This document shows, piece by piece, positions 39,023-47,836 of a stretch of DNA of 64,000 nt. The first letter of the stretch is position 1. Every line of letters begins with the position of its first letter. Origin of the DNA: Bacteriovorax sp. Seq25_V. GTDB taxonomy: Bacteria > Bdellovibrionota > Bacteriovoracia > Bacteriovoracales > Bacteriovoracaceae. The stretch lies in contig NZ_AUNI01000019.1 of NCBI RefSeq assembly GCF_000447795.1, positions 124,001 to 188,000 on the forward strand, written 5' to 3'. The translations under genes and the position numbers were made by a program. The notes below the pieces were generated by a model that saw only the letters and a program-made list of their open reading frames with translations, searched no databases and was not told the DNA's origin.

Positions 39023-39781
39023 CTAGAATAGATTTGGTTCGGAGTTTTTATCGAGAAAAGCTAGTATACCATCAGCGACAGATTTGGCGAATTGATCTTG
39101 AAATTTTCCTGATATCGTTAGCTTAGCTTCATTCTCATTCGTAAGAAATCCAACTTCAATTAAGATTGCTGGTCGTTTTGAAAGAGCAAGTACATAAAAC
39201 ATACCTGGTTTGAGGCCGCGGTCTGACATCTTGTACTTTTTCGGTAAGATACTTGTTAATTTTGAGTGTACGGCCTGTCCTAACTCTTTAGATTTTGGTG
39301 CAACTCTCTCGATAATAAGATCTGTGAGTATATTATTAACGATCATTTCTTGGCCATTGCTGCCATTTCTGTTTTCTGCTCTTTCGACTTTCTTGATCAC
39401 TTCGTCTTTGTGGTTATCAAGATAATAAGTTTCAAAACCATTTGACGACTTAATAGTTGCAGCATTGAGGTGAATCGAGACGAATATGTCGGCTTTTATT
39501 GTGTCTGCAAGTTTACTTCTTTTATCAAGGTCTAGTTCTTTGTCGATGGTACGAGTCAAGTATGCTGTATGACGATTTGACTTATTTACTAAGGTTTTAA
39601 CTTTCTTAGCAATCGCAAGAGCGATATCTTTCTCACAGATTACTACGAGGCGCTTATTCTGCCATAGCTTCGCTTTTGCGCCACAGTCTTCTCCACCATG
39701 TCCTGGATCGATGAGAACACGTTTTGCACTAACGCTAAACGAGAGGATGAAAGTGAAAATTAGGATATAAGTTTTTGACAT
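39023..39781 (-). CDS. N-acetylmuramoyl-L-alanine amidase (Amidase_3)
   Basis: The ATG at 39781 lies seven bases after a promoter -10 and starts a normal signal peptide (SKTYILIFTFILSFSVSA); the longer frame from 39808 is less likely. The 252-residue zinc amidase has the metal ligands His in DPGHGGED, Glu in CEKDIAL and His in VSIHLNA, and the catalytic Glu in LIEVGFLTN. It cleaves the bond between muramic acid and the peptide stem. There are no AMIN or SPOR domains, so it is the minimal secreted form. Confidence 0.92.
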   Translation of the reverse strand: MSKTYILIFTFILSFSVSAKRVLIDPGHGGEDCGAKAKLWQNKRLVVICEKDIALAIAKKVKTLVNKSNRHTAYLTRTIDKELDLDKRSKLADTIKADIFVSIHLNAATIKSSNGFETYYLDNHKDEVIKKVERAENRNGSNGQEMIVNNILTDLIIERVAPKSKELGQAVHSKLTSILPKKYKMSDRGLKPGMFYVLALSKRPAILIEVGFLTNENEAKLTISGKFQDQFAKSVADGILAFLDKNSEPNLF

Positions 39782-39788
39782 TACAAAT

Positions 39789-39817
39789 ATTATGCAAAAA
39801 AGTTTCACTTATATCAA
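39789..39817 (-). promoter_or_regulatory. Promoter of the amidase gene, leaderless start
   Basis: Minus strand: TTGATA (39817-39812), 17 bases and CATAAT (39794-39789), with the ATG seven bases on. There is no ribosome site. Confidence 0.6.
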
Positions 39818-41224: not shown

Positions 41225-42159
41225 ACTGTGTCTTTTTTCATAATTTCATAGAGACAATGAATTTTCATATCCTTGAAGTCTTCAGGGATACTCCACTTCG
41301 TTAGTTCTTTGATGTTGTAGTGTCTAAATAACTCATCATCTAACTTAAAAGAGCGAAGGTTGTTACTAAAGTAAAGTTTTCCGCCCTTCTTCAAGATCTG
41401 AGTACACTTCTTGATAAGTTCGATATGATCTCTTTGAATATCAAGTGTTCCTTCCATTTTCTTTGATTGAGAAAACGTTGGAGGATCCATAATGATAAGA
41501 TCGTAGAATTCATTATTTTTTTCTTTGTTCTTTTCAAAGAATTTAAATACGTCTTCACGGTAGAAGAAATGATTTTCGAGATTTAGGTTGTTAAGTTTGA
41601 AATTCTCTTCGGCCCAGTCAAGATAGGTATTAGACATATCAATACTTGTCACAGAACTTGCGCCCATCGCACTTGCGACAGATAGTGATCCTGTATAGCA
41701 AAAGAGATTGAGTACTTTTTTTCCTTCAGCTTCTTTAATTAGCTTTTGACGAAGAGGGCGGTGGTCAAGAAATAGACCTGTGTCAATATACTTTGTGAGA
41801 TTAACGATGAACTTCAAATCTCCTTCGTTAATAACAAATTCAATTCCTTTTTCATTGCTTTTGGCATATTTGAATTCATCATCTTGCTGTCTTCTTTCTT
41901 TGTAGATGATATTATCTTTCGGTATTTCACAAACCTCTTCAATAGCATCAAGAAGAAGTTGATCATGTCCTTTAACCTCATCAATTTCTTTTTTTCCCTT
42001 GAAGTGTACTACAGCATAGTTCTTGTAAATATCAACAAGGAATGGAAAGTCGGGGAGGTCTTTTTCGTAAACACGATAGGCCTCAAAACCATTGCGGCGG
42101 GCCCATTTCGCTCTATGTTTAAAATTCTTTTTTAATCGATTGATTATTTGCTCTTTCAT
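41221..42159 (-). CDS. rlmK: 23S rRNA (guanine-N7) methyltransferase RlmK-like
   Basis: The 312-residue product corresponds to the C-terminal (RlmK) half of E. coli RlmKL, which methylates G2069: NRLKKNFKHRAKWARR at the start, VNLTKYIDTGLFLDHRPLR, motif I LNLFCYTGSLSV, motif IV IIMDPPTFSQSKKMEG, then DIQRDH and FSNNLRSF. Here it is a stand-alone gene without the RlmL half. It overlaps the upstream papain-like gene by four bases (ATGA), a curious coupling between an rRNA enzyme and a secreted protease. Confidence 0.9.
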   Translation of the reverse strand: MKEQIINRLKKNFKHRAKWARRNGFEAYRVYEKDLPDFPFLVDIYKNYAVVHFKGKKEIDEVKGHDQLLLDAIEEVCEIPKDNIIYKERRQQDDEFKYAKSNEKGIEFVINEGDLKFIVNLTKYIDTGLFLDHRPLRQKLIKEAEGKKVLNLFCYTGSLSVASAMGASSVTSIDMSNTYLDWAEENFKLNNLNLENHFFYREDVFKFFEKNKEKNNEFYDLIIMDPPTFSQSKKMEGTLDIQRDHIELIKKCTQILKKGGKLYFSNNLRSFKLDDELFRHYNIKELTKWSIPEDFKDMKIHCLYEIMKKDTV

Positions 42160-43298
42160 TTAATCGCTTTTATTTGGTAGGCATGATTACCTGTTGTTTC
42201 AAACCACTGATATTCTCTAAAAATAACTTCTGGGTTTAAGTGTGACTCTTCCCCTGTTTGTGAGAGGTCATAATCATATATTGGCATTGACTCATCTGGA
42301 TTGATTGAATCTCTTACATAGAAAACACCTTTTTCTGCACATCCACCTTGCTCTTCAAATAGTGTTTGTACAGTTGTTGCCTTCTTACGGGCCATTCTTG
42401 CTTTTGAGAGAAGACTATTTTTCTTTTTAAGATCTTCTTCTGTTGCAGCTTCTTCTTCATATTTTTGCGCTTTTTCGTTCATAAAAGGAGCGTATCCAGT
42501 TGTGTACGGACAGCCTTTAGTTGGCGCATGATCATTGAATCCAACAATAATTACAGCATGCCAAAAGCCGTGGTGCGTGTAGATAACATTGACAGGGGCC
42601 TTATTAGTCACAAGGGCATGCTTGATTTGTGAAACAATATCTTTTGGTGCTGATGCCACTGCCCATTGATTTTTATTTGGGTCTGCGTAGATAACATCAC
42701 GGTTGAATTTTGGCAGAGTAACGAGCTCATGATCAAATTTGGCATCGACTTCTTTTTTGTAGCTAATCCAGTTATAGCTAGTACCATAATCTGCTTTTTC
42801 ATCATCTTTTGATGTGTGGATGCGATCCCCATCATCATTGTATTTGAAATAACTTTTTGTATAGGGATATTGCTTATTAAGTGCAAGTTTTGAGTACTCA
42901 TTTACTCTTTCAATATTATCTGTTCTCCAGTTTGAGATACGACTTTGGCCAATGCTTTCTTTCATGAGGGCCATGTAGTAGCGCTCACTAAGGTCTTGTC
43001 TTTGATCTCCTGTTAAGTCATTTAGATAGTTATTCCACCATTCCATTGTTCCAGTGAGTGACATATAGAGACATGAACCTGCATCTTCTTGATCAGGTAC
43101 TGGCATAATATATGGAAGAAGATCGTTAAATCCTCCTGCGAACATTTCGTAGTCTGTACTTTCACTTGATGTACTAAAGGACGGGATAGATGATTTGGAT
43201 ATGGCATCGATTTTAATTGATTGTCTTCTTATATCTGACTCAGAAGCGAAGGTCATATTAGCAAATATAGCTATTAGAAACATCCATATCTTGTTCAT
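42156..43298 (-). CDS. Secreted papain-like (C1) cysteine protease
   Basis: The ATG at 43298 has AGGAG six bases upstream. The 380-residue product has a signal peptide (about 1-18) and a papain-type fold: Gln and catalytic Cys in PVPDQEDAGSCLYMS (compare PVKDQGxCGSC), catalytic His in FWHAVIIVGFND and an Asp/Asn-position residue in FYVRDSI. It should be an exported endopeptidase or peptidase-like amidase. It is transcribed divergently from the two-gene amidoligase unit at 43431-47443 and is coupled to rlmK downstream. Confidence 0.8.
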   Translation of the reverse strand: MNKIWMFLIAIFANMTFASESDIRRQSIKIDAISKSSIPSFSTSSESTDYEMFAGGFNDLLPYIMPVPDQEDAGSCLYMSLTGTMEWWNNYLNDLTGDQRQDLSERYYMALMKESIGQSRISNWRTDNIERVNEYSKLALNKQYPYTKSYFKYNDDGDRIHTSKDDEKADYGTSYNWISYKKEVDAKFDHELVTLPKFNRDVIYADPNKNQWAVASAPKDIVSQIKHALVTNKAPVNVIYTHHGFWHAVIIVGFNDHAPTKGCPYTTGYAPFMNEKAQKYEEEAATEEDLKKKNSLLSKARMARKKATTVQTLFEEQGGCAEKGVFYVRDSINPDESMPIYDYDLSQTGEESHLNPEVIFREYQWFETTGNHAYQIKAIK

Positions 43299-43430
43299 TA
43301 AAACTCCTTTTTTAGTCATCTAAATATCTGAATATACTCTAATAGTTGATTCGTTTTGTCAAAATACTAAAGACTTGAGGGGGGAATACCGAATAGTTTT
43401 TGTCAAATATCGAGAAATGTAGGAGTTACA

Positions 43431-44351
43431 ATGAAATTTTCGCGAAGCGTACTCGTTGCGTGCACATTCCTGGCACTCAGCGTAAATTCGTCTGTGATCA
43501 AAATAGCAGATGCACTCTTTGAGCACTCAAATCTCAAATCAAAGTTGGTTAGTTCCGGCATAACAGGAGAAGGTCTGACGAGAATGGTTAACGTTGTCGA
43601 CATTAGTGTTAATTCTCTGATTAGGCCAGGTGAGCAAGCGAACTTCATTCAGATCGTGAAGGGGTTACCTGTTGCTTCTGAAGATCTTGGAAAGAAGAAT
43701 AGACTTCTTAAAACTTTAAGTTCTCCAATGGACAAAGTTGGAAGTGATGAGTTTATTGAGTCCCTGAATGATTTAATTTTTATTGCGAATCGCTATAATA
43801 TTTCTGGCTCTCAGACACTTTCGTGTTCGGTATGTGTTTCTGATGAACTTGCAAGAATCGGAATTCGAAATACTCTCTCATTTGTTTCAGACAGGAAGGT
43901 GGCAAAAATTCTTGAACGTATACCACAAGAGCCGAGAAAACTTTCTGTTTACCTCAAGCGTAGAATCACGAAACTTGGAATTAAAGATGTTACACAGTTT
44001 CTTTCGAAAGAAGATGAGCGAGCATTTGCTCTATTTCTCGAACTAAAATCTAGTGGTGATGAAGTTTTCTCAAGCTTTGTTGATGCAGTTATTAGTTTTA
44101 ATAGAAGTTCTAAAAACTCAGTAAGCCTTGCTGGCCCTGAATCAATTGGTCAACTTTGGCGTGTGATCAACTCTGATCTTTCTGCAGATAAAATGAAATC
44201 TCTAACAAAAGTTTTAAATGAAGCTTCTAAGGAGAGGCCTGAAAAGAGAGTTGATGCTTTCTTCGAAGCTCTCACTAAAAGTGCAGATGGTGATAGTGAG
44301 AAAATTTCAAATATCGAAGAACTTAGAACTAAGAACTGTTTTTTTAACTAA
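43431..44351 (+). CDS. Exported protein encoded ahead of the tandem amidoligase
   Basis: The 306-residue product has a signal peptide (about 1-19) and a wholly helical mature region with a CSVC pair (about residue 128) and a Cys near the C-terminus. I recognise no family. It has an AGGAG site and is followed 20 bases later by the amidoligase-like gene, so the two products are probably made together and may form a complex. Confidence 0.7.
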   Translation: MKFSRSVLVACTFLALSVNSSVIKIADALFEHSNLKSKLVSSGITGEGLTRMVNVVDISVNSLIRPGEQANFIQIVKGLPVASEDLGKKNRLLKTLSSPMDKVGSDEFIESLNDLIFIANRYNISGSQTLSCSVCVSDELARIGIRNTLSFVSDRKVAKILERIPQEPRKLSVYLKRRITKLGIKDVTQFLSKEDERAFALFLELKSSGDEVFSSFVDAVISFNRSSKNSVSLAGPESIGQLWRVINSDLSADKMKSLTKVLNEASKERPEKRVDAFFEALTKSADGDSEKISNIEELRTKNCFFN

Positions 44352-44371: not shown

Positions 44372-47300
44372 ATGAGTAAAAATAAAGTTTCAAAATTAGC
44401 AGCATATCTCTCTCTCTCTGGGATGATGTATAACTGCTCTCACATTCCAGGTCTTGGTAGGGATGTTTCAAGTGAAGGCTTTGTCCCTCAAACAGCCTAT
44501 GAAGCATGGGGTACTCTTAATCATTCGGCGACCAGTTATCAGGCGACAGCTCTTTTTGTTGAAGAGGGTGTTGAAGTTCCTGGGATGGGATCTGGTGTTT
44601 CATGGGGGGCCGAGAAAGAAGCTTCATCGAGTTTAGTTACTCGTGTAATGGGGCCACCTCCTGAAGTATTTAAGGGACGACTCGAAACTCTAACTCCTGA
44701 TAATCAAGAGTTATTTTTAAGAGACTTTTTAGGTAATTATAAGAAAGATGCCAATGGGTATAGAACATTTAAAAACGAACAAGGTCTAAAAGTCGACCTT
44801 GCTCGTGATGTGGTGGATGCAGAGGGTAATCCTAAACTTATTGATCTTTCAAAGCTTAAAGCTCTCGATGTGGAAAATGCATCACTTGAAGAGTTAACTG
44901 CTGTATTCGATGATTTCCTAGCACAGACTGATGGAAGACCAATGTCTTTTATCAAGCCACAAATTAGAATGAAGATGTTTAACGGAAATCTTCCTGGTCT
45001 TGACGGAAAGTTCTTTGCGACAACAAGAAATTATCGTGGAGCTTATCAGCCAAATTATAATTTATGGGTGCCAAATTTTGGAAAGGCACAAAAATATCTC
45101 ATCAACGCTCACGGCCACAATGGTGGTGTAGGTGGTGGTTGGGAAATGAACTTTGTACCACTGTCTACTTATGGAGAGTTTGAAGAAATGGTTTCATGGT
45201 TTAGAAATGAGCTAAGCCAAGTGATTAAAGACCCATATGAGCTCGAAAGAAAAGTTAAGTTATTCCAGGCCCCTGGTCACCAGAGGATGGTTTTTACAAA
45301 ACACTCGAATCTTCCAGCAGATAAGCTTGCTGAACTATATAGGATGGTTCAAACCTATATTGTACTTAGTGGGGTTCAAGGAAACACTGGTATCGAGTTC
45401 GCTAACTTTAAAAAGATTGTGCCGGATAGTGACCTAAAGTCTCTCGATGCTCGTTATGATCGTGGTGTTATTAGGGTTGAAGGGGACCGCTGGGCACCGA
45501 ATACACTTGGTATTGAGTTTAGGGCCGGAACAAAAGATCTCGATGTCGCAAGGTTTTATCAAACAGTATTAGCGGCTCGTGTAACAGCAAATGATTATGA
45601 TGGGCTTGCTGGAATTGATGACTATTCACTCTATAATAATAAAGTGATGGATACGAAGTATATTTCTCAAAAAACTGGTGCTCTTATGACGGATGTCGCG
45701 AAGGCGAAAGCTGTTCTTGATGCGGTCGGTATCAAAGAGGGGTATCGTATTCAGCTTTGGGATTGGACTCACAAAAAAGTTCCATATCTTTCAAGTACGA
45801 AGAAATCACTTCTTCGAACGCTGACAAAAGATTATATCGAGCGAGTGGCAAAGATCGATCCTAATTCTCCAAATGCAAAAGAAAGTGTTCGTGCACTTGG
45901 TAGGGAATGGACTCGAGCTTCAAGACTTACAGCAGACATTGAAAACTATATGAGACCGAAGAGAAAGTTTACGTATAGCAAAGATGTCTTAAACTTCAAA
46001 GTTCCTGAAGGAAGACAGCTGGTATCTGAAATTACTGATGTCAACAAGATCGATCTCGGTATTGAATACTCAGGAAAATTTCCATTAGCTGTAAGAGGAG
46101 ACTTTTCTAAAGATCGCCTTGAAGATGGAAAGAGAGCGTGGATTCAAACGAAAGTTGACCTTTCAAGTGAAGAGCGTGAGGCCATCATTAAGAAAGTTGC
46201 TATGGACTTAAAGCGAGAGTTAAAAGGTGTCGAGGGACCAACGAAAGTAGATTCTGATGGTCACGGTCACGGTCTTGATGTTTCATATACAATTCGCGAT
46301 TCTAAAAATAGAAAATGGATTGTTGAGTGGGACGGTATAGGACGTAGTTATACTCCTGAAGGGGAAATTATTGAAGGCTCTTCAAGGGGGGGATCAATTG
46401 AGCTTGTAACTCCTAAGTTTACTCCTGAGCTTAATGAGATGAATGCTGTATACAAAGCATTTGAGGCCAATAATATTCTTCCTCAACTGACTTCAGGTGG
46501 GGGACATATTAATATTGACCTTGCGGCCTTTGATGGAAAACCAAAAGAACTTGCAAGATTTCTTTCTGTCTTCCATGAGCACCGTAGTGTGATCTCATTA
46601 ATGTTCCAGCATGTGGCAAGGTCTCATACTTCAGAACAACTTGATCTGAGTAATAACCTTGTACAGGCACTTAAAAACTTTGATGGGACTGAAGATGAGT
46701 TAAAAAAGCTTCTCTATAATGAAAGATATTTTAATACACGCTTTGGAAGAAAGTCTCGTTATGTACAGCTTGATTTATCAGCTTACTATCAAGATATAAT
46801 ACCAGAAGAATTTATTACAGATGACTTTGATATTTCTAATCCTACGACACCATGGAGAAGACAATTTAGAGTTGATCCAAAAATTAGAAAGGCCGAGTTT
46901 AGAATGTTTAATGCTCCTCGTGACGCAATGGAATCTGCACTACAAGTGAAGCTTGTAAGGGCGATGTTATCAAAAGCACTTAATGAAACAGAACCAGTAG
47001 GTGGTAAAGTTGCTATGATGACACATAAAACGTACTTAGCAGATCAGAACAAGGCCTTTAGTGATCTAGAGAAAATGTGTAATGATCTCGGTCTTGATAT
47101 TAATGAGTATCGACCTGCTGTTGCGGAAGGGTTAGCAGAAACAGAGAAAACATTACGTTCACCATTCTATGTCCCTCTTAACGAGAGATTGAAAAATAAC
47201 CCGCATCAAAAAGGTTGGGGGAATGCTTCAGATGCTCGACCTGCAGATCAGTCATTAGCTTCCGAGGGAAGAGCTTGGGAACCTGGTCCAGCAGATCAGT

Positions 47301-47443
47301 ACAATACAATGACCAATGAGCATAGAGTTGAGGCCGCAAGAAAAGGGCAACAAATGAGAAATGGAATTGTTCCGGCAAGAGAGCTACCATACGAGTTTGT
47401 TAAGACTCAAAATTGCACCCAGCTTATTAATTCGATTCTTTAA
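44372..47443 (+). CDS. Exported protein with two amidoligase-like domains
   Basis: The 1023-residue product has a basic, then hydrophobic N-terminus ending YNC-SH, probably a signal peptide with an atypical lipobox. The C-terminal half (about 555-875) follows the Amidoligase_2 pattern: GIEYSG, VEWDG, GSIELVTP (675-681), GGGHINID (709-716) and AEFRMF (841-846). The N-terminal half repeats the order with weaker residues: WGAEKE (78-83), GWEMNFVP, GHQRMVF and GIEFRAG (380-386). These ATP-dependent ligases, of the glutamine-synthetase-like superfamily, join a carboxyl to an amine. Export of one is unexpected. Domain assignment is by motif reading. Confidence 0.7.
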   Translation: MSKNKVSKLAAYLSLSGMMYNCSHIPGLGRDVSSEGFVPQTAYEAWGTLNHSATSYQATALFVEEGVEVPGMGSGVSWGAEKEASSSLVTRVMGPPPEVFKGRLETLTPDNQELFLRDFLGNYKKDANGYRTFKNEQGLKVDLARDVVDAEGNPKLIDLSKLKALDVENASLEELTAVFDDFLAQTDGRPMSFIKPQIRMKMFNGNLPGLDGKFFATTRNYRGAYQPNYNLWVPNFGKAQKYLINAHGHNGGVGGGWEMNFVPLSTYGEFEEMVSWFRNELSQVIKDPYELERKVKLFQAPGHQRMVFTKHSNLPADKLAELYRMVQTYIVLSGVQGNTGIEFANFKKIVPDSDLKSLDARYDRGVIRVEGDRWAPNTLGIEFRAGTKDLDVARFYQTVLAARVTANDYDGLAGIDDYSLYNNKVMDTKYISQKTGALMTDVAKAKAVLDAVGIKEGYRIQLWDWTHKKVPYLSSTKKSLLRTLTKDYIERVAKIDPNSPNAKESVRALGREWTRASRLTADIENYMRPKRKFTYSKDVLNFKVPEGRQLVSEITDVNKIDLGIEYSGKFPLAVRGDFSKDRLEDGKRAWIQTKVDLSSEEREAIIKKVAMDLKRELKGVEGPTKVDSDGHGHGLDVSYTIRDSKNRKWIVEWDGIGRSYTPEGEIIEGSSRGGSIELVTPKFTPELNEMNAVYKAFEANNILPQLTSGGGHINIDLAAFDGKPKELARFLSVFHEHRSVISLMFQHVARSHTSEQLDLSNNLVQALKNFDGTEDELKKLLYNERYFNTRFGRKSRYVQLDLSAYYQDIIPEEFITDDFDISNPTTPWRRQFRVDPKIRKAEFRMFNAPRDAMESALQVKLVRAMLSKALNETEPVGGKVAMMTHKTYLADQNKAFSDLEKMCNDLGLDINEYRPAVAEGLAETEKTLRSPFYVPLNERLKNNPHQKGWGNASDARPADQSLASEGRAWEPGPADQYNTMTNEHRVEAARKGQQMRNGIVPARELPYEFVKTQNCTQLINSIL

Positions 47444-47449
47444 AAGAAA

Positions 47450-47472
47450 AGGCGTCTGTTATAGACGCCTTT
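47450..47472. terminator. Bidirectional terminator
   Basis: A 9-bp stem (47450-47458 with 47464-47472) with a GTTAT loop has an A-run before it and a T-run after it. It serves both the amidoligase-like gene and the convergent response regulator. Confidence 0.85.
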
Positions 47473-47473
47473 T

Positions 47474-47836
47474 TTATTTTGAATCACCAAGTAACTCTTC
47501 GATATATAATTTTAATTTCTTATGGGGCAGTGGTTTATAGAGAATATCACTTGCACCTTTTGATGATGCCTCCTCGCGAGAGACATCGACATTGGCCGTG
47601 ATGAAGACGAAGGACTTGACTGAGATCTCTTTATTTTGAATGGCCTGAAGAAGTTCAAAGCCATCCATATTGGGCATTCTAATATCAGAGAAGATATAAT
47701 CGTATTTATCTTTAGCAAGGAGTTCGAGGGCCTCGAGACCATCTTTAGCTAGGCTATAGTTAACATTCATATCATCCAAGAATATTTCATATAGTTCTAG
47801 TAGTTCAATTTCGTCTTCAACAAATAAGAATTTCAT
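47474..47836 (-). CDS. Single-domain response regulator
   Basis: The 120-residue CheY-like receiver has acidic residues in FVEDEIE, the phosphoacceptor Asp in YIFSDIRMP, a Thr in FITANVD and the Lys in LYKPLPHK. There is no output domain, and no kinase is adjacent. It is read convergently with the amidoligase-like gene. Confidence 0.92.
   Translation of the reverse strand: MKFLFVEDEIELLELYEIFLDDMNVNYSLAKDGLEALELLAKDKYDYIFSDIRMPNMDGFELLQAIQNKEISVKSFVFITANVDVSREEASSKGASDILYKPLPHKKLKLYIEELLGDSK

Follow-up and report, generated by a model that had tools for sequence, protein, structure and literature searches.

We analyzed a 64,000-nucleotide stretch of contig NZ_AUNI01000019.1 from Bacteriovorax sp. 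Seq25_V, hereafter the window, and focused on an open reading frame that encodes a 1,023-residue protein. The analysis supports this reading frame as real and places the following features around it:

42156–43319, − strand: exported papain-like peptidase, 387 amino acids, divergently transcribed, with Q..GSC, GFWHA and YVRDS motifs
43431–44351, + strand: exported partner, 306 amino acids, with a signal peptide, a CxxC pair and a C-terminal cysteine (CFFN)
44372–47443, + strand: exported tandem ligase-like protein, 1,023 amino acids, from the open reading frame call
47445–47475, + strand: strong, 14-pair terminator-like hairpin directly 3′ of the ligase gene

The stop of the partner gene and the start of the ligase gene are separated by 20 bp, with an AAAGG-type ribosome site between the two genes. 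The + strand between them carries no convincing terminator, a weak 6-pair match on this strand being located inside the partner gene, and the strong hairpin directly follows the ligase gene. The partner and ligase genes likely form one operon, in agreement with a first-pass annotation of this DNA that had described the 306-residue partner as co-transcribed. Elsewhere in the window (39023–39808, − strand) is a gene for an exported protein with VLIDPGHGGEDCGAK that by eye resembles an N-acetylmuramoyl-L-alanine amidase.

Of 369 genomes examined in the phylum Bdellovibrionota, 65 contain a match to the tandem family, and a small number of these matches are weak or partial. The family is absent from most of the genomes, so predation as such does not depend on it. 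The nearest named relatives are in Bacteriovorax sp. DB6_IX (69% identity) and Halobacteriovorax, and a genome-wide scan, which reaches close relatives only, recovered nine Bacteriovoracaceae loci. All conservation counts given below refer to 53 full-length homologs, among which identity falls to 26%. A mobile or viral origin of the tandem ligase was rejected because viral contigs, plasmids and phages yielded no relatives, and assignment to a defense or phage family was rejected with no family matches. Sequence searches found no relative of known structure for the protein, and the literature searched contained no description of the system, in keeping with its earlier designation as a candidate undescribed system. 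Long relatives of about 1,800–2,130 amino acids (L031 4818–10352, L032 4674–10736, L091 2010–8237, L125 4916–11272 and L130 3640–10023) have helical or HEAT-like extensions beyond the two ligase-like halves, and two tandem copies (G061:C3:70045–72153 and G068:C89:7547–9637) contain one in-frame stop each (TAA, TAG) and are possibly decaying.

The tandem ligase-like protein begins with a putative export signal:

44372–44437, + strand: N-terminal export segment, residues 1–22, with a lipoprotein-like start and Cys22 (MSKNKVSKLAAYLSLSGMMYNC)

The lipobox of the window protein is atypical (MMYNC); among near relatives this site reads YNC or ASC, or is a clearer lipobox, for example TGC. Using hydrophobicity and motif rules together with N-termini read by eye, and not SignalP, we assigned an export-type N-terminus, of signal peptide or lipoprotein type, to all 51 homologs with an intact start; two further homologs that lost their N-termini at contig ends fall outside this count. 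Several homologs have a classical signal peptide in place of the lipobox, with ends such as FSALAQ or ATLVHAQ, and other homologs have the lipoboxes LITGCS or FLISCS. The N-terminal sequences thus support the earlier prediction that the signal-like segment directs export, atypical as the lipobox of the window protein itself is. It is very unlikely that the hydrophobic segment instead anchors an ordinary ATP-dependent ligase facing the cytoplasm: the segment is short in the window protein and MYNC is non-canonical, but homologs carry textbook signal peptides or lipoboxes, and the partner and the papain-like peptidase have signal peptides as well. Among 30 other Amidoligase_2 (PF12224) proteins of the phylum, 20 have export-type N-termini and 10, mostly short and high-scoring, do not.

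The C-terminal half of the protein is a divergent Amidoligase_2 domain, with the following features:

46004–47161, + strand: C-terminal half, residues about 545–930, divergent Amidoligase_2 domain with a glutamine synthetase (GS) fold, from the PF12224 and structure matches
46064–46072, + strand: E565-Y-S567, altered ExE motif, from the alignment of 53 homologs
46262–46270, + strand: H631-G-H633, invariant and peculiar to the tandem family
46325–46333, + strand: E652-W-D654, invariant
46400–46402, + strand: E677 in SIELVTP, invariant (53/53)
46505–46507, + strand: H712 in GGGHINID, 52/53 with one gap
46895–46903, + strand: E842-F-R844, E and R each 52/53 with one gap
47414–47416, + strand: Cys1015, close to the C-terminus and conserved within the core clade

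PF12224 is the sole Pfam match of the whole protein (hmmscan, E ≤ 1), with 27.2 bits (cut-off 22) over residues 636–807. The same model matches 20 of 21 family members scanned and has no other match in the Bacteriovorax sp. Seq25_V genome. We compared an AlphaFold2 model (m98b20cba2fcb; pLDDT 57.6 overall, moderate confidence) with known structures; the structure models are modest because the alignments held 10 sequences. The C-terminal half aligned with glutamine synthetase with a VIA-align Z of 12.2 (262 residues, rmsd 5.3), followed by plant glutamate-cysteine ligase (Z 11.6), YbdK (10.9) and the depupylase Dop (10.5), with matches spanning residues about 533–944 and the best unrelated entry at Z 7.1. 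By these modeled structure matches and the PF12224 score, the C-terminal half belongs to the GS superfamily, as its earlier description as Amidoligase_2-type had implied. We take E565, E652/D654, E677, H712, E842 and R844 to occupy metal- and substrate-ligand positions, as judged from GS and GshA.

Comparison with described enzymes reveals both shared and divergent features. With Amidoligase_2 domains the C-terminal half shares the GS fold, the E..P strand motif, the GGxH motif and the ExR motif. It differs in the ExE motif, where E565 is kept in all 53 homologs but the second glutamate is replaced throughout by serine (40) or threonine (13); GxExE with both glutamates is thus missing, whereas the comparison Amidoligase_2 domains that cover the site keep both. 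This substitution makes the metal site non-standard. The tandem family further differs from Amidoligase_2 proteins in its invariant HGHG and EWDG motifs, in its export and in the joining of the domain to a second conserved half, and contrasts with the short, high-scoring members of the same phylum that lack an export signal. The fold of residues 533–944 is shared with the GS, glutamate-cysteine ligase and YbdK superfamily at Z of 10.8–12.2, but identity is only ~10%, and the export and gene neighbors of the window protein are out of place in nitrogen or glutathione metabolism. As a side observation, a PF12224 domain also lies behind a helicase-like N-terminus with a GAGKT/GSGKT-type motif in two apparently cytoplasmic proteins (L087 2584–4923 and L088 2660–5521).

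The N-terminal half repeats several of these elements in more diverged form:

44549–45691, + strand: N-terminal half, residues 60–440, probable second GS-like domain, from invariant residues, spacing and weak structure hints
44612–44620, + strand: E81-K82-E83, ExE-type motif, invariant (53/53)
45140–45145, + strand: W257-E258, in 43 of the 43 sequences aligned there, the other 10 being gapped
45278–45280, + strand: H303, invariant (53/53)
45515–45535, + strand: E382-x-R384-x-G386-x-K388, with E, R and G in 53/53 and K in 52/53

Few positions of this half are kept in at least 48 of the 53 homologs, and those that never vary also include G302 and R403. The succession ExE, E, H, ExR is the GS-type order, a likeness of order and conservation only, and the ExE pair is intact with both glutamates, unlike that of the C-terminal half. 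A spacing of 35 separates E258 from H303 in 37 of 43 sequences and, in the C-terminal half, E677 from H712 in 42 of 52. Because of these invariant residues and the common spacing, the N-terminal half is probably a second GS-like domain, and we take E81, E83, E258, H303, E382 and R384, by analogy with GS and GshA, as its candidate active site. Family models gave no match to the N-terminal half, PF12224 matched none of 10 N-terminal halves at E ≤ 1, and profile–profile comparisons with the C-terminal half, other Amidoligase_2 domains and the tandem L095 domains were not significant. Modeled alone, the N-terminal half gave a poor model (pLDDT 56) with a best structure match of Z 4.5, and its matches longer than 150 residues were all to GS family enzymes, PafA or arginine kinase. 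The first-pass annotation had named two amidoligase-like domains and proposed a fold comparison of both halves: the comparison bears out the C-terminal domain, and a GS-like N-terminal domain is probable, with structure matches up to Z 4.5 and no family-model or significant profile match. The motifs it had quoted are all present, most of them on residues invariant in the 53 homologs. Two GS-like segments (GFESEF, GFEAEF) also occur in an independent exported protein that is distant from the window family and is encoded in L095 (4818–8054) and L092 (4123–6537); in L095 HEAT repeats follow these segments.

Either half, or both, could have lost catalysis and act as a scaffold for binding, a role that the altered metal site of the C-terminal half and the repeats added in the long relatives, with their HEAT-like extensions, would fit. 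We regard this as improbable, since a dead scaffold would not need the glutamate, histidine and arginine residues that are invariant at catalytic-type positions in both halves.

We surveyed gene neighborhoods across the phylum and found the exported partner gene upstream of the ligase gene in all 13 core-clade loci that have long flanks, the window locus among them, which upholds the view that the partner belongs to the system. A papain-like exported peptidase lies beside the ligase in 11 of these 13 loci, and a further exported papain-like gene follows downstream in five loci. The window peptidase scores 17.5 bits against PF00112, below the cut-off of 20.7, and its glutamine, cysteine and histidine motifs are conserved; the papain asparagine position is an aspartate (YVRDS), aligned with clear C1 neighbors. 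In a divergent clade, the gene immediately downstream of the ligase and on the same strand encodes an exported subtilase (PF00082, E about 1e-43) in five loci, and a sixth has an exported subtilase nearby; a seventh, more distant locus has a homolog of the papain-like gene directly downstream. The long-repeat relatives have no conserved peptidase neighbor. Two unrelated exported peptidases adjoining one ligase family provide the best clue to function, and these linked peptidases, papain-like in one clade and subtilase in another, extend the first-pass annotation, as do the Amidoligase_2–ATP-grasp fusions described below.

Both the partner (window 44339–44351) and the ligase (window 47414–47443) have a cysteine followed by hydrophobic residues near the C-terminus, and a similar cysteine near the C-terminus or mature N-terminus is seen in other exported amidoligase-type proteins (L076, L079, L083, L072, L081, L090 and L095). 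A C-terminal cysteine at first appeared enriched in the surveyed loci, at 35% against 6% expected. Among exported proteins in about 0.7 Mb of the window's own genome, however, the frequency was 18.7% against 13.5% expected, and hardly any proteins other than amidoligase-type ones carry the strict motif; a general sorting signal was rejected on this basis.

PafA and Dop offer a further comparison. Dop is a GS-fold hydrolase, turned to hydrolysis relative to PafA, and the GS fold is shared with the window protein, through Dop for the C-terminal half and through PafA among the weak matches of the N-terminal half. Enzymes of this kind work on a small protein whose C-terminus is conserved, which makes a comparison with the window partner tempting; however, the window ligase is exported and its partner, exported and 306 amino acids long, is not Pup-like. 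The Pup ligase family model did not match the window protein (hmmscan, E ≤ 1), and no Pup match was found in the partner.

GS-superfamily amide ligases are normally cytoplasmic, ATP-using enzymes, and the first-pass annotation had accordingly called an extracytoplasmic one odd. Five exported Amidoligase_2 proteins of Bdellovibrionota (L076 838–3156, L079 1565–3847, L082 3820–6219, L083 4143–6605 and L086 3924–7454) also contain an ATP-grasp region of R2K type, marked by an IESNPxxNS-type motif, and each of these exported chains combines two ligase folds that use ATP. Two of the five (L083 and L086) pass the Pfam R2K cut-off and the other three fall below it. Like the window protein they are exported and amidoligase-type, some with a terminal cysteine, but they pair one GS-like domain with an ATP-grasp instead of having two halves, their PF12224 scores are clearer and their ExE pair is intact. 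Because two unrelated ATP-using ligase folds are exported in the phylum, ATP at the site of action is the easiest account, and the fusions suggest the presence of ATP at that site, perhaps in prey, rather than lost ATP dependence. Uptake of ATP by Bdellovibrio bacteriovorus has been reported (Ruby and McCabe 1986, listed among the references of PMC4834554), which implies the presence of ATP inside prey. The oddity is thereby partly answered. R2K ATP-grasp enzymes are predicted peptide ligases that have been proposed as effectors in conflicts between organisms (PMC4431377), a clade that differs from the window protein in fold and for which the proposal invokes type IV/VI delivery, not signal peptides. 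For other folds, predictions of effectors secreted by predatory bacteria have been published (PMC12419801).

The enzyme might instead modify or protect the peptidoglycan peptides or lipoproteins of the predator's own envelope, prey not being involved, and the lipoprotein-like N-terminus would then be a tether to the predator membrane. We judge this unlikely: the family is patchy across the phylum, several homologs have a classical signal peptide and not a lipobox, and a normal periplasm is not known to contain ATP. A Dop-like turn to hydrolysis is a weightier alternative that we nonetheless consider doubtful. The protein would then be an exported amidase or isopeptidase that, with the linked peptidase, opens amide bonds in peptides or peptidoglycan of the prey, for example γ-glutamyl bonds or cross-links. 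The presence of Dop among the structure matches of the C-terminal half and the loss of the second ExE glutamate there are consistent with hydrolysis, which would need no ATP turnover outside the cell, and the peptidase linkage suits degradation; the exported ATP-grasp fusions, which suggest ATP-using chemistry outside the cytoplasm, and the intact ExE pair of the N-terminal half argue against it.

We place ahead of hydrolysis the tentative reading, to which we assign a probability of about 0.4, that the window protein is an extracytoplasmic amide-bond ligase acting on peptides with prey ATP, together with a linked exported peptidase and a bound partner. This reading draws on the catalytic-type residues unchanged in the 53 homologs and on the PF12224 match, the fold, the export, the conserved partner, the peptidase linkage, the exported ATP-grasp fusions and the reported uptake of ATP. 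Counting against it are the serine or threonine in place of the second ExE glutamate of the C-terminal half, the merely probable fold of the N-terminal half, the absence of the family from most genomes of the phylum and the long-repeat relatives that have no conserved peptidase neighbor. The computational basis consists of the GS fold of the C-terminal half, conservation, export-type N-termini and gene linkage, from which we infer the direction of ligation, the source of ATP, prey as the site of action and the roles of peptidase and partner. In this model, the Sec route would carry the tandem protein, probably a lipoprotein, out of the predator cytoplasm, and the protein would work outside that compartment. 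Its C-terminal half would act as a GS-superfamily enzyme that retains most residues at metal- and substrate-ligand positions, and its N-terminal half would probably provide a second, further diverged GS-like active site. The enzyme would join a carboxylate to an amine of peptide substrates in amide bonds, powered by ATP that prey release during intraperiplasmic growth. The linked exported peptidase may cut or trim the same substrates or mature the enzyme, and the small exported cysteine protein of the same operon would be a likely binding partner.

A broader proposal is that predatory Bdellovibrionota export a set of ATP-dependent peptide ligases, tandem GS-like enzymes in the window family and GS-like–ATP-grasp fusions in other proteins, along with peptidases. 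Acting beyond the predator cytoplasm and driven by ATP from the prey, these ligases would tag, cap or cross-link proteins or peptidoglycan peptides of the prey. This proposal is at present more speculative than the ligase reading itself and in our estimate rather unlikely. Among the sequence, structure-model and neighborhood results, none ties the window protein specifically to peptidoglycan. The family offers a subject for structural work, with an N-terminal half that matches no described family, and its members are candidate agents of unknown changes to the walls or proteins of prey. With exported amide ligases that always have two conserved halves and often adjoin exported peptidases, ATP-dependent bond formation inside prey becomes a testable question.
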